This document shows positions 13,356-17,805 of a stretch of 64,000 nt of DNA, one piece after another. The position numbers and the translations under genes are program-made. Source of the DNA: Sulfurimonas indica (GTDB taxonomy: Bacteria > Campylobacterota > Campylobacteria > Campylobacterales > Sulfurimonadaceae); NCBI RefSeq assembly GCF_009192995.1, contig NZ_SDID01000002.1, positions 62,001-126,000 on the forward strand, written 5' to 3'. Numbering within the stretch: position 1 is the first letter of the stretch; every line of letters begins with the position of its first letter. The notes below the pieces were generated by a model. The model did no database searches. It had not been told where the DNA came from and worked only from the letters and a program-made list of their open reading frames with translations.

Positions 13356-13760
13356 ATGGCAGAATTGGCTCTCTTTTTCTCTGCATTTGTAGCAGCAACA
13401 ATCCTACCTTTTTCTTCTGAAGTAGCTTTTATGACAGCACTTAAAAGTGGAATGCCTCTCTCTCACGCAATGCTTGCAGCATCAAGTGGTAATATTTTAG
13501 CCATTGTTTTTAACTACTATCTGGGGTATTTTCTCTATGAGAAGACAAAACGCAAACTTTTTGGCTCTAAAATTGGCAAACGTGCTTTTCTTTGGGGACA
13601 TAAGTATGGCTATATTACTCTTTTTGCTTCCTGGCTTCCCATCATTGGTGATCCATTAACAATAGTTGCTGGACTTGTTAGGCTAAAGTTTGTTTGGTTT
13701 GTTATAATAGCAGGGCTTTTAAGAATAGGGAGATATTATCTTCTGGCAACATTTTTATAA
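13356..13760 (+). CDS. YqaA-like (SNARE-associated family) membrane protein
   Basis: A 134-residue inner-membrane protein with three to four hydrophobic segments. It has the family pattern FSSEVAFM near the N-terminus, a GN-x9-GY turn, and WLPIIGDPLTIVAG-x8-FV in the last third, which resembles DedA/YqaA proteins. It is the third gene of a tight run after purT and the dehydrogenase. Members of this superfamily act in lipid or ion movement across membranes, and the specific role here is unknown. Confidence 0.8.
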   Translation: MAELALFFSAFVAATILPFSSEVAFMTALKSGMPLSHAMLAASSGNILAIVFNYYLGYFLYEKTKRKLFGSKIGKRAFLWGHKYGYITLFASWLPIIGDPLTIVAGLVRLKFVWFVIIAGLLRIGRYYLLATFL

Positions 13761-13814: not shown

Positions 13815-13855
13815 CATAAAAATGTAAAAAGATAAAAAGCGTTAGGAGCGTGGAG

Positions 13856-15364
13856 ATGAAAACAGACGTACTGATAATCGGTGCAGGTGGTGCAGGGCTT
13901 ACAGCTGCGATAGCGGCAAAAGAAGAGGACGTGGATGTTGTAGTACTTACTAAAGAGTATCCAACTCGAAGTCAGACCTGTATGGCACAGGGTGGCATTA
14001 ATGCAGCACTTGGAAATGTTGAAGAAGACAGCATAGAGGCACATATTCAAAATACTTTAAAATCTGCTCATGGACTAGCTAACGAGGAGACGGTGCGGTA
14101 TATGTGTTCTGAAGCACCGGCAACGGTTGCATGGCTTGATAGTATTGGTGTCTGTTTTTCTCGCAGTGAGGATGCAAAAATCGCACAAAGACGACTTGGT
14201 GGTGCATCAGCAGCTAGGTCCTGTTATGCACAGGACTATACAGGTCTAAAAATTTTGCATACACTCTATGACAAAGCACTCTCTTTAGATATTGAGATAA
14301 AAAATGAGAAGATACTTTTAGAGCTTTTGAAAGATGAGAATGACATGGTGTGTGGTGCCTTGATGCTTGATCTTCGAAGCGGGCAAAAAGAGCGCTATTT
14401 TGCAAAGTCAGTCATCTTGGCAACAGGTGGATACTCACGCATCTATGGTAAAAACTCTACAAACTCAACAAAAGCAACGGGTGATGGCATAGCTGTTGCA
14501 AAACGAGCGGGAGCAAAACTACTACATATGGAGTTTGTACAGTTTCATCCAACAGGACTCAAAAACTCTTCTATTCTTATCAGTGAATCAGCTCGAGGGG
14601 AAGGTGGCTATATTCTCAACTCTAAAGGTGAGCGTTTTACTAATGAGTTAGCACCGCGTGATGAAGTGAGTCGTGCAATTGATGCGGAGATAAAAAAGGG
14701 CGAAGAGATCTTTTTGGATATTCGCCATCTTGGAGAGCAGTTCATTGATGAGGGTTTGCCGCAAGAGAGAAAACTCGCAAAACTGTATGAAAATGTAGAT
14801 CCTGTATATGATCTCATTCCCATTAAACCTGTTGCTCACTATACTATGGGTGGTATAGAGGTTGATAACAATTCACAAACAAATTTAGAAGGACTTTTTG
14901 CCTGTGGTGAGTGTTCTAACCACAGAGTCCACGGAGCAAATCGATTGGGAGGAAATTCACTTCTAGAGATTGCTGTTTTTGGAAAAGAGGCTGGAAAAAA
15001 TGCTGCAAAAAGAGCAAAGACAATGGAGTCTCACGTGGCAGCTTCACCAAAAGATGATTTTTTAGAACAGGAGTTTACTAAAGAGATAGATTTTTATGTT
15101 CTACGCCAGATGATGGGCGACCTGCTTTATAACAAAGTAGGAATTGTTAGACGTGAGAGTGAGTTGCGTGAGGCAGAGGCGTTTATAGAAGAGACAAAGA
15201 AAAAACTGCCACTAATGGGTGCAAAAGACAACTCACTAAGATATAATACAGATCTTGCAGAATTTTTGGAATTTCGAAATATGTTAGATGTGGCAGAAGT
15301 TGTCATCAAATCAGCACTCTCACGCAAAGAGAGTGTCGGTGCACATACGATGGAGCAGGAGTAG
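13856..15364 (+). CDS. Sdh/Frd-like flavoprotein subunit
   Basis: A flavoprotein of the succinate dehydrogenase/fumarate reductase/L-aspartate oxidase family, 502 residues from the ATG at 13856. That ATG has AGGAG 7 nt upstream, whereas the GTG at 13850 is too close to it. The FAD-binding motif GAGGAGLTAAIAA is at the N-terminus. Substrate-site motifs follow: HPTG, RGEGG, HYTMGG and NRLGGNSLLE. The usual flavin-linking His (RSHT) is replaced by Gln (RSQT), which predicts non-covalent FAD and argues against efficient succinate oxidation. The Fe-S subunit gene follows after 3 nt, and no membrane anchor gene is nearby. Confidence 0.88.
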   Translation: MKTDVLIIGAGGAGLTAAIAAKEEDVDVVVLTKEYPTRSQTCMAQGGINAALGNVEEDSIEAHIQNTLKSAHGLANEETVRYMCSEAPATVAWLDSIGVCFSRSEDAKIAQRRLGGASAARSCYAQDYTGLKILHTLYDKALSLDIEIKNEKILLELLKDENDMVCGALMLDLRSGQKERYFAKSVILATGGYSRIYGKNSTNSTKATGDGIAVAKRAGAKLLHMEFVQFHPTGLKNSSILISESARGEGGYILNSKGERFTNELAPRDEVSRAIDAEIKKGEEIFLDIRHLGEQFIDEGLPQERKLAKLYENVDPVYDLIPIKPVAHYTMGGIEVDNNSQTNLEGLFACGECSNHRVHGANRLGGNSLLEIAVFGKEAGKNAAKRAKTMESHVAASPKDDFLEQEFTKEIDFYVLRQMMGDLLYNKVGIVRRESELREAEAFIEETKKKLPLMGAKDNSLRYNTDLAEFLEFRNMLDVAEVVIKSALSRKESVGAHTMEQE

Positions 15365-15367
15365 AGT

Positions 15368-16084
15368 ATGAAGATAAGCATAAAAAGAGAGTTTGACTTT
15401 ATCGAGTATGATGTAGATATGCAAGATGTAACACTGCTTGAGATGTTAAATCACATTAAAAGTGAAGTAGACAGTTCCCTTGCTTACAGCAGTGGTTGTC
15501 GCAGTAGTGTTTGTGGTTCCTGCGGGGTTCGTGTCAATGAAAAAGAGGTTTTGGCATGTTCTTACAAAGTACAAGAGGGTGACAAGATAGAACCACTTAA
15601 AAATGTTCCTGTTATTCGTGACTTGGTTGTGAGTCTAGACAAAGCTTACGAGACAAATGCACGAGCCAAAGCATGGATAAGTGAGTATAACTCCCAAGCC
15701 AAGCAGACACATGAAGATGAGAAGATAAATGAAACACAGAGTGATTGTATCTTATGTGCTTCGTGCTATTCAGCTTGTCCTGTCTATGCAGTCAATGAAG
15801 AGTTTTTAGGACCGTTTGCACTGACACGTGTCTGGAAGGTTGTAAGTGACAAGCGTGAGGCAGAGCTTAAAGAAAAAATCGATACTATTCAGACAAATGG
15901 TGTCTGGGATTGTACTTTATGTAATGAGTGTACAGTTGTTTGTCCACAGGGAATATCAAGTAAAGCCGATATTGAAAAACTTCGAGCAAAATCTTCACAG
16001 TATGGTTATATGGATCCAAACTTCGGAAGTTTTGGCGGAGGATTTGATAGCGGTTTTGGTTTTGATGGAACTCCTAGTTTCTAG
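15368..16084 (+). CDS. Sdh/Frd-like iron-sulfur subunit
   Basis: A 238-residue partner of the flavoprotein upstream. The N-terminal plant-type [2Fe-2S] domain has CRSSVCGSC followed by a distant Cys in VLAC. The C-terminal part has CILCASCYSACP for a [4Fe-4S] cluster and CTLCNECTVVCP as the third set. That third set has four Cys in CxxCxxCxxxCP form, where the classical [3Fe-4S] motif has one fewer, so two [4Fe-4S] clusters are likely. The last 20 residues are Gly/Phe-rich. No anchor subunit (SdhC, FrdC or SdhE) follows, and the next gene is convergent. Confidence 0.88.
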   Translation: MKISIKREFDFIEYDVDMQDVTLLEMLNHIKSEVDSSLAYSSGCRSSVCGSCGVRVNEKEVLACSYKVQEGDKIEPLKNVPVIRDLVVSLDKAYETNARAKAWISEYNSQAKQTHEDEKINETQSDCILCASCYSACPVYAVNEEFLGPFALTRVWKVVSDKREAELKEKIDTIQTNGVWDCTLCNECTVVCPQGISSKADIEKLRAKSSQYGYMDPNFGSFGGGFDSGFGFDGTPSF

Positions 16085-16089
16085 GAGCT

Positions 16090-17805
16090 CTATCGAAAGT
16101 TCGTTCTCTCTATAGGTGGTTTGTAGTGGGGATCTTTTCCTGCTACTGTCCATAACTCTTTTGCAAGATGACTTACTGTTTTTTTCATATCATCTTCCAC
16201 TAACTCAAAATCACTAAAGTTCTCACGCAGAAGATTTAATTCTTCCTCTTGTGGGAGTATCTCTTTTTGTTTTTGTAGTGTGAGTGCTGTATTATTTTTA
16301 AGATTATAGAGGTGCCAGAGTGCGAGAAAATCTTCTGAATATCTGTTTAGGATATGGTGTGCATAGAGTTGAAAGTTTTGGTAACCGCTTTGCTCAAATA
16401 GACTAATAACAAGTGTTATCGTCTCTTTGAGATGCACATAGGGTACCATTGAAAAGAGTTGTCTTGCCACGCTTTGTCCGTTATCATGTTCCGCACCGAT
16501 AAAGACACGTGCTCCACCATCGGTATCTCCAAAGTTGTTTGTTTTAAGACCAATGAGTCCTATGTCGGTATGACGATGTCTTCCACACCCTTTTGCACAG
16601 CCAGAAAAACCGATTTTGATACGGTTAGTATAGATTTTCTCCAATGGAAGGTAGTCGTGTGCCTCATCTTTGATGCTCCAAACAGCATAAGGACAGAGGT
16701 TGCCGGCACAGGCAACGATAGTTGAACTGAGTGCCGGTGAGTTGAAAGGGACTTCTTTGTTTTGTAATCCTAAGATGTAGATATTCTGGTCAATACCTAC
16801 TCGAATTTCACCATCTATTTGCGTTACAAAGTCACTGATGTCACGCATCTCTTTTGGACTTAGGCGTCCAAAATCACTTTGATAACAAAAAGCAAAAGTC
16901 CCATCAGGTAGCTCTTCAAACTCTTCAAAGTCCACATGTTCAAGCTGTAATTCCCCTGCACTAACAAATTTTTTGTTATAAACAGACTCGATGAGCTCTT
17001 TGAGTTTTTCAAGCCCTATCTCTTCGATCATATAGAAAAGGCGTGTTTTTGAACGGGAAAATCGTGAGCCGTGCGTGTAAAACGTCTCTACAAATGCTTT
17101 GAAAAAGTCCAGTACTTCATCCTCACGCAAGAAGATATTGGCATCCTGAGCAATTTCAGTATTTTTCCCACCCATATAAACATTAAATCCATAGTCACCA
17201 TCTTTAAAGGCTAGTGCAAAGTAGAGATCATTTGCAAAAAAGGAGTTTACATTTGCGGAGTTTCCAGAGATGCCGATACTTACACGACGAGGAAGCATTC
17301 CGACATATTTTGGATTTTGAATGATGTAATCATTCATTGCTTTAATGATTGGATGTACTTCAATATGCCCGTATCTGCTGACACCGTCATAGACATCGGT
17401 GACAATATTTCTGATGTTGTCACCAAAACTCTGCCATGTCGTAAGGCCGTTATCGTTGAGTTTGTGCCAAATCTCTGCTACATCATCAGCATAGACATCA
17501 TGGAGTTGAAAGCCTGCACGGGCTGTAATAACCAAAGTAAGATCATACTCTTCAATCAAGTCCGCTAAAAATTTAAAAGCATTTGTACTGAAATGACCAC
17601 CATTACCATTACGAAGTCGGATGGTAAACTCATCTTCCAGGAAGTCGATATTAAAGATACCGAAGTCTTGAAGATAGTATCTGTCTCCCTCCCCAAGTGA
17701 CTCAAAATCAATAGTCTCAAACTCATTGACGTAATAGTCATACGGTTTTAGTCGTGCTTTGTACTGCTCACGTTTGTTTAACTTTTTCTCTAAATCTTCA
17801 GACAT
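16090..17805 (-). CDS. Siroheme-dependent nitrite/sulfite reductase
   Basis: A 571-residue hemoprotein with the duplicated ferredoxin-like half-domains of the nitrite/sulfite reductase family. The siroheme-[4Fe-4S] ligands appear as CAGNLC and GCAKGCG about 40 residues later. The first pair is C-x4-C, whereas CysI/NirA proteins usually have C-x5-C. It reduces nitrite or sulfite to ammonia or sulfide with six electrons, and the sequence alone does not settle which. It is convergent with the Sdh/Frd-like pair and divergent from yajQ, with an FNR-like site in the intergenic region. Confidence 0.88.
   Translation of the reverse strand: MSEDLEKKLNKREQYKARLKPYDYYVNEFETIDFESLGEGDRYYLQDFGIFNIDFLEDEFTIRLRNGNGGHFSTNAFKFLADLIEEYDLTLVITARAGFQLHDVYADDVAEIWHKLNDNGLTTWQSFGDNIRNIVTDVYDGVSRYGHIEVHPIIKAMNDYIIQNPKYVGMLPRRVSIGISGNSANVNSFFANDLYFALAFKDGDYGFNVYMGGKNTEIAQDANIFLREDEVLDFFKAFVETFYTHGSRFSRSKTRLFYMIEEIGLEKLKELIESVYNKKFVSAGELQLEHVDFEEFEELPDGTFAFCYQSDFGRLSPKEMRDISDFVTQIDGEIRVGIDQNIYILGLQNKEVPFNSPALSSTIVACAGNLCPYAVWSIKDEAHDYLPLEKIYTNRIKIGFSGCAKGCGRHRHTDIGLIGLKTNNFGDTDGGARVFIGAEHDNGQSVARQLFSMVPYVHLKETITLVISLFEQSGYQNFQLYAHHILNRYSEDFLALWHLYNLKNNTALTLQKQKEILPQEEELNLLRENFSDFELVEDDMKKTVSHLAKELWTVAGKDPHYKPPIERTNFR

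Follow-up and report, generated by a model that had tools for sequence, protein, structure and literature searches.

A Conserved Two-Subunit Member of the Complex II Superfamily without a Membrane Anchor Gene in Sulfurimonas indica: A Putative Soluble Fumarate Reductase of Campylobacteria

Two-subunit enzymes of the fumarate reductase/succinate dehydrogenase (FRD/SDH) type have already been reported. The relevant passage of PMC4674564, a paper from 2015, tells of another epsilonproteobacterium that has both a two-subunit and a three-subunit FRD/SDH. It also recounts that Sievert et al. (2008) had found a similar two-subunit FRD/SDH in S. denitrificans, for which they proposed a cytoplasmic location and a role in the reductive tricarboxylic acid (rTCA) cycle. 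An excerpt of PMC2628731 states that S. denitrificans and Nautilia encode two complexes each, and a passage of a review (PMC6682613) assigns the fumarate step of the rTCA cycle to the quinone-linked FrdABC. Like the pair of proteins analyzed here, A and B, the enzyme of Sievert et al. is presented in the passage of PMC4674564 as FrdA- and FrdB-like genes only, with no third subunit, in a genome that also carries a three-subunit copy; judging from the genus, it probably belongs to the same family. That passage describes no flavin site, clusters, clade or co-occurrence for it. The term novel oxidoreductase, offered as one possibility when the locus was read from its sequence alone, is too strong because of the earlier report of a two-subunit FRD/SDH, as related there. 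A literature search by titles and the first lines of abstracts recognized no biochemical study of such a two-subunit pair. The flavin chemistry of the superfamily is better documented. According to the portion of PMC9557727 at hand, covalently bound FAD has a raised potential and is reported as necessary for succinate oxidation, and homologues with non-covalent FAD reduce fumarate and do not oxidize succinate. The loss of the flavin-linking His is already known from the 8-methylmenaquinol:fumarate reductase (MFR), which, in the excerpt of PMC2680327, has Ala at this place and non-covalent FAD, and reduces fumarate with undetectable succinate oxidation. In its A86H variant the FAD became covalent and succinate was still not oxidized (PMC2680327, same excerpt), so the residue at the flavin place does not set the direction by itself.

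The genes lie in a 64,000-nucleotide stretch of Sulfurimonas indica DNA (contig NZ_SDID01000002.1, hereafter the window), part of a 2.09 Mb genome in 52 contigs. Subunit A, an SdhA/FrdA-like flavoprotein of 502 amino acids, is encoded at positions 13856-15364, as assigned from its open reading frame, domain, alignment, tree and structure model. Subunit B, an Fe-S protein of 238 amino acids recognized by its reading frame, domain and alignment, is encoded at 15368-16084. Both genes are on the plus strand, 3 bases apart, in an operon that includes no membrane anchor gene. The list of open reading frames also held a GTG start for subunit A (13850-15364). The ATG at 13856, which the sequence-only reading had used, is the better choice because a likely ribosome-binding site, TAGGAG (13843-13848, plus strand), is located 7 bases before it, a spacing that suits this start. 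Upstream of the pair are purT, a D-2-hydroxyacid dehydrogenase gene (PRK08410; 12426-13349, plus strand) and a gene for a small VTT-domain-like membrane protein (13356-13760, plus strand; 31.4 bits, cut-off 33.9). The latter is also a neighbor in some relatives and is no complex II anchor. Downstream, a nitrite/sulfite-reductase-like gene on the minus strand (16090-17805) is followed by yajQ on the plus strand. The 571-amino-acid product of the reductase-like gene scored far under every NCBIfam cut-off (194 of 594 bits for the NirA type), and this gene adjoins the pair at two other loci as well (L150 and L152). Predicted promoters and terminators showed no excess over shuffled sequence. In many relatives assembled in one or two contigs (G001, G016, G030, G047, G071 and others) the pair is found on the plus strand about 30-51 kb from the contig start, a place that may be near the origin.

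The limits of the family were defined in a class-level sample of 298 Campylobacteria genomes. A score of 565 bits was the threshold for orthologs of subunit A. Next in rank, at 534-556 bits, were proteins from seven genomes of family f5, three of which were placed in a tree and formed a separate His-bearing clade; the other four (G174, G185, G230 and G357) were excluded by score, length and family alone. The cut for subunit B fell in a clear gap, 277 versus 205 bits. Orthologs of A were found in 70 genomes and those of B in the identical 70. Since A and B are unlinked in four of these genomes (on different contigs in G314, G331 and G344, and about 94 kb apart in G367), their co-occurrence is not a by-product of linkage. 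The flavoprotein phylogeny that had been proposed as a check showed no clustering with SdhA, FrdA or MfrA: in two quick trees without bootstrap, with 39 and 37 ortholog rows, respectively, the A orthologs formed one clade (SH-aLRT 99-100) apart from SdhA, FrdA, MfrA and NadB. The references were SdhA, FrdA, NadB and E. coli sequences, with MfrA in the second tree and TfrA in neither. Three further SdhA/FrdA-like proteins (L155, L156 and L157, from genomes G260, G184 and G305 of families f6, f5 and f2), which have Asn instead of the flavin His and Phe at the substrate position, fell outside all named clades and were treated as another lineage, not as members of the pair. A peptide-pattern scan of one genome per species, a method that may overlook distant relatives, gave 76 loci, seven of them from Campylobacterota at 51-93% identity and all others at 37% or less. 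Within the window's own family, subunit A was present in 143 of 151 genomes, the three weakest matches being partial; the eight genomes lacking it include one that is 99% complete (G064), two at 93% (G035 and G100) and others at 72-81%.

The pair largely coincides with ATP-citrate lyase (PF16114), which was found in 75 of the 298 genomes. It is present in 61 of the 70 pair-bearing genomes and in 14 of the remaining 228. The Wolinella-type FrdA (NF006383) was found in 236 genomes, 22 with the pair and 214 without it. Of the 61 genomes in which the pair and ATP-citrate lyase occur together, 48 have no such FrdA, and these are all the genomes that carry the pair without it; FrdA is present in each of the nine pair-bearing genomes that lack ATP-citrate lyase. 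The 14 ATP-citrate-lyase genomes that lack the pair comprise five with FrdA, seven (f5) with another SdhA-type complex as their second, and two, G064 and G249, with a single SdhB-type gene each. These counts follow lineages and are presented without a claim of significance, as the Fisher value for the association takes no account of relatedness. With exceptions in both directions (14 and nine genomes), the pair is typical of rTCA autotrophs, yet neither required for the cycle nor confined to it. The D-2-hydroxyacid dehydrogenase, present in the fetched stretch at 22 of 38 ortholog loci, was considered as a functional partner and rejected: its family is found in 280 of 298 genomes, and is absent from 12 of the 70 with the pair and from 6 of the 228 without it, so it was dropped as an obligate partner.

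Subunit A matched PF00890 with 350 bits and fell narrowly below the cut-off of the NCBIfam model sdhA_frdA_Gneg (TIGR01812; 550.4 bits, cut-off 567.3). Its structure model, built from a 40-row alignment that included NadB and SdhA rows, had a pLDDT of 93.3 and replaced a poor one made from seven close orthologs (pLDDT 64.8). The best PDB match of the model was E. coli FrdA, with 498 residues aligned at an rmsd of 1.5 and a Z score of 54.6. The fold, the site residues and the Fe-S subunit place A-B in the complex II superfamily, in which SdhA/FrdA and SdhB/FrdB form the catalytic pair. The motif RSQT where covalent-FAD enzymes have RSHT, noticed in the initial reading, was confirmed by alignment: Gln40 (numbered from the ATG at 13856) occupies the place of the flavin-linking His, which is His in E. 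coli FrdA and SdhA and in the SdhA of the same genome. Of the 70 class-level orthologs, 64 have Gln at this place and 3 have Asn; Ala, Gly and His occur once each. Loss of the His in 69 of 70, the exception being G240, supports the earlier suggestion that the flavin is probably not bound covalently.

His231, Glu244, Arg268, His328 and Arg363 align with the His/Glu/Arg/His/Arg set of the FrdA fumarate site, which we take to be the catalytic set, and these five residues are kept in 70 of 70 A orthologs. Leu114 stands where FrdA has a Phe, a residue that presumably contacts the substrate in FrdA and SdhA. The same place is Leu in 55 of the A orthologs, Met in 8 and Phe in 7; the reference rows have Phe in SdhA and FrdA (23 of 23), Glu in NadB (7 of 7), and Ala or Met in MfrA (13 of 13). 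Leu or Met occurs in all 61 genomes with the pair and ATP-citrate lyase, and Phe in seven of the nine with the pair and no ATP-citrate lyase; all seven Phe orthologs (L131, L134, L141, L158, L159, L213 and L215) come from the latter. This association comprises only three independent contrasts, of which about two agree and none oppose, and for this reason it cannot reach significance.

The change of the active-site Phe could mean another substrate. Because the Phe over the substrate in FrdA and SdhA is replaced by Leu or Met, A-B might reduce a different unsaturated dicarboxylate, e.g., a substituted fumarate. The Leu/Met/Phe distribution of 55, 8 and 7 against a uniform Phe in the 23 SdhA and FrdA rows fits this idea, and the title of a reference in PMC6682613 names fumarate, mesaconate and crotonate as substrates of C. 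jejuni Mfr. A D-2-hydroxyacid dehydrogenase is also a frequent neighbor of the pair, but the wide occurrence of its family (280/298) and its absence from 12 of the 70 genomes with the pair speak against an obligate partnership. All 70 orthologs retain the five residues that align with the catalytic set of FrdA, which argues against a changed substrate too, and the contact between Phe and substrate is itself presumed. We consider this explanation unlikely.

Subunit B scored 186.6 bits with the dhsB model TIGR00384 (cut-off 88), and C44, C49, C52 and C64 are its predicted [2Fe-2S] ligands. The motif CxxCxxCxxxCP appears twice, at C127/C130/C133/C137 and at C182/C185/C188/C192. The first motif is of the ordinary kind (E. 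coli FrdB has CINCGLCYAACP). The second, CTLCNECTVVCP, has an extra Cys among C182, C185, C188 and C192; its E. coli counterparts in FrdB and SdhB, CTFVGYCSEVCP or CHSIMNCVSVCP, have no fourth Cys. The extra Cys in the Fe-S subunit had been pointed out before, and both four-Cys motifs were found in 60 of 60 collected B orthologs. The fourth Cys supports the accompanying proposal of a second [4Fe-4S] cluster, which is predicted here instead of a [3Fe-4S] cluster. The C-terminus of subunit B is a stretch rich in Gly, Phe, Asn and Pro, variable in length, followed by a terminal Phe. This Phe is present in 57 of 60 B orthologs and in 10 of 64 other SdhB-type hits, which sorting by eye divided into eight SdhABE-type proteins, an f5 orphan and a Bacteroidales protein. 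As a guess, the Phe-ending tail might be a docking site. In f5, an orphan gene close to that of a His-bearing SdhA encodes an SdhB-like protein of 236-238 amino acids whose tail also ends in Phe (L128:5113-5823 and L129:2794-3510); this may be another way of meeting the same need.

The view that no SdhE or membrane subunit is nearby was borne out: no SdhE or anchor gene was found beside the pair in the 64-kb window, and none was seen beside its orthologs in the 38 loci examined. The neighboring proteins were also considered as hidden anchors and discarded, as none of 14 clusters was SdhC-, SdhD- or SdhE-like by eye. A distant anchor, suggested as worth searching for, did not appear either; the CCG and Sdh_cyt searches of the whole genome revealed no anchor of the pair's own. 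Sdh_cyt (PF01127) gave no match in a search whose control was positive in 7 of 14. CCG (SdhE-type) domains were found in two genes, one of which is sdhE, part of a complete sdhABE operon that lies on a different contig (C1). The second CCG gene (G000:C5:45100-45759; L010, L011) belongs to a 435-amino-acid protein with two CCG domains. Strong FAD_binding_2 matches were limited to three genes, namely subunit A, the sdhA of sdhABE, whose product has the flavin His (C1), and nadB (C34), and only two genes in the genome have the SdhB N-terminal domain. Since the genome also has a complete SdhABE with the His kept and a NadB, and no Sdh_cyt, the A-B pair is an additional enzyme without its own anchor.

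The pair could borrow the SdhE of SdhABE and use menaquinol, acting as an alternative catalytic head of the E-type enzyme. The single SdhE of the genome and the four-Cys second motif shared by both B subunits are consistent with such an arrangement. However, B and SdhB are only 30% identical and differ in their C-terminal tails, A and SdhA belong to separate clades, and genomes that lack the pair likewise have SdhABE-type SdhA and SdhB (L182 from G064 and L168 from G249), all of which makes a borrowed SdhE quite improbable to us. An ordinary succinate dehydrogenase/fumarate reductase with anchor genes elsewhere would agree with the superfamily membership, but with no Sdh_cyt match genome-wide and the sole SdhE-type operon belonging to SdhABE we regard it as very improbable. 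A variant of L-aspartate dehydrogenase/oxidase feeding NAD synthesis, suggested by the NadB-like AQGG segment, the non-covalent FAD and a nadB model score of 399.7 bits, has hardly any probability left, given that this score is under the cut-off (452.75), that subunit A has Leu where NadB has Glu (7 of 7 rows), lies outside the NadB clade and has an Fe-S partner, and that the genome has a separate NadB.

The reading that we favor, with moderate confidence, is that A-B is a cytoplasmic, soluble, two-subunit fumarate reductase of the complex II superfamily, biased toward reduction and serving mainly the rTCA cycle. Subunit A would hold FAD non-covalently, and a low flavin potential and the direction from fumarate to succinate would be expected from this. 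The bias to reduction, also put forward in the sequence-only reading, is supported by analogy with the non-covalent homologues and with MFR, which reduces fumarate without the His and without succinate oxidation. Electrons would reach the FAD by way of three clusters in subunit B, two [4Fe-4S] and one [2Fe-2S]. Because the pair is without an anchor or quinone site, a soluble donor is expected; it may be a low-potential carrier (ferredoxin, flavodoxin or a reductase) whose docking on B might involve the flexible Phe-ending tail. The succinate formed would feed the rTCA cycle in most carriers, and the separate SdhABE, with its flavin His, would serve the quinone-linked succinate/fumarate chemistry. 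The domains, catalytic residues, cluster ligands, His loss, separate clade, co-retention of A and B and overlap with ATP-citrate lyase are evident from the sequences; reduction only, the soluble donor, the role of the tail and the role in the rTCA cycle are what we infer for the pair. No donor gene was linked to the pair, and we count this against the favored reading together with the ATP-citrate-lyase exceptions, the His of G240 and the A86H result. More tentatively, and with less chance of being right in full, the pair may be a membrane-free fumarate reductase specific to Campylobacteria that drives the rTCA fumarate step, with a soluble low-potential carrier docking on the conserved Phe-ending tail and with the active-site Phe changed to Leu or Met in autotrophs, most FrdABC-bearing relatives without ATP-citrate lyase having Phe.

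What is at stake is how electrons enter fumarate in the rTCA cycle of Campylobacterota from vents and sulfidic waters. If the pair is the working enzyme, the step would be fed by a soluble donor and not be directly tied to the quinone pool, which would alter the energy balance of one of the major routes of CO2 fixation. The pair makes the electron source of this step testable on one defined enzyme. The limits of the family, the variation of flavin site and clusters, the strict co-retention of A and B and the Phe-ending tail are new here, as is the presence of Leu or Met for the active-site Phe in every ATP-citrate-lyase genome with the pair.

Quinone-linked SQR and QFR have the covalent-FAD His and an Sdh_cyt anchor; A-B has neither. 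MFR (the SdhABE of W. succinogenes and C. jejuni) resembles A-B in the lost flavin His and the second [4Fe-4S] motif, but it has SdhE and a Tat leader, is periplasmic, carries Ala at the His place and belongs to a separate clade. Subunit A begins directly with the FAD-binding segment, the MfrA rows begin with RREFLQSA-type leaders, and the score of subunit A with the MFR equivalog was 417.7 bits (cut-off 1100). The kinship with E-type/methylmenaquinol enzymes first suggested for the locus thus holds for the four-Cys motif and is otherwise not supported, because SdhE, Tat leader, MFR score and MFR clade are missing. The E-type SdhABE of the same genome (C1) shares with A-B the four-Cys second motif and the lack of an export leader, and differs in its flavin His (RSHS), its SdhE and its separate clade. 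TfrAB, the thiol:fumarate reductase of methanogens, is a soluble two-subunit fumarate reductase, as A-B is predicted to be. Its TfrB carries a fused CCG part, unlike the 238-amino-acid subunit B, which has no CCG domain among its domain matches, and the scores of A and B reached 419 of 718 bits for TfrA and 167 of 385 bits for TfrB. Flavocytochrome c3 fumarate reductase, which is heme-fed, and L-aspartate oxidase have non-covalent FAD and reduce fumarate, as predicted for A-B, but have no SdhB-type partner. Judged by its sequence against these systems, A-B is a real, conserved enzyme that probably represents a variant among the soluble fumarate reductases; it does not constitute a new type of system.
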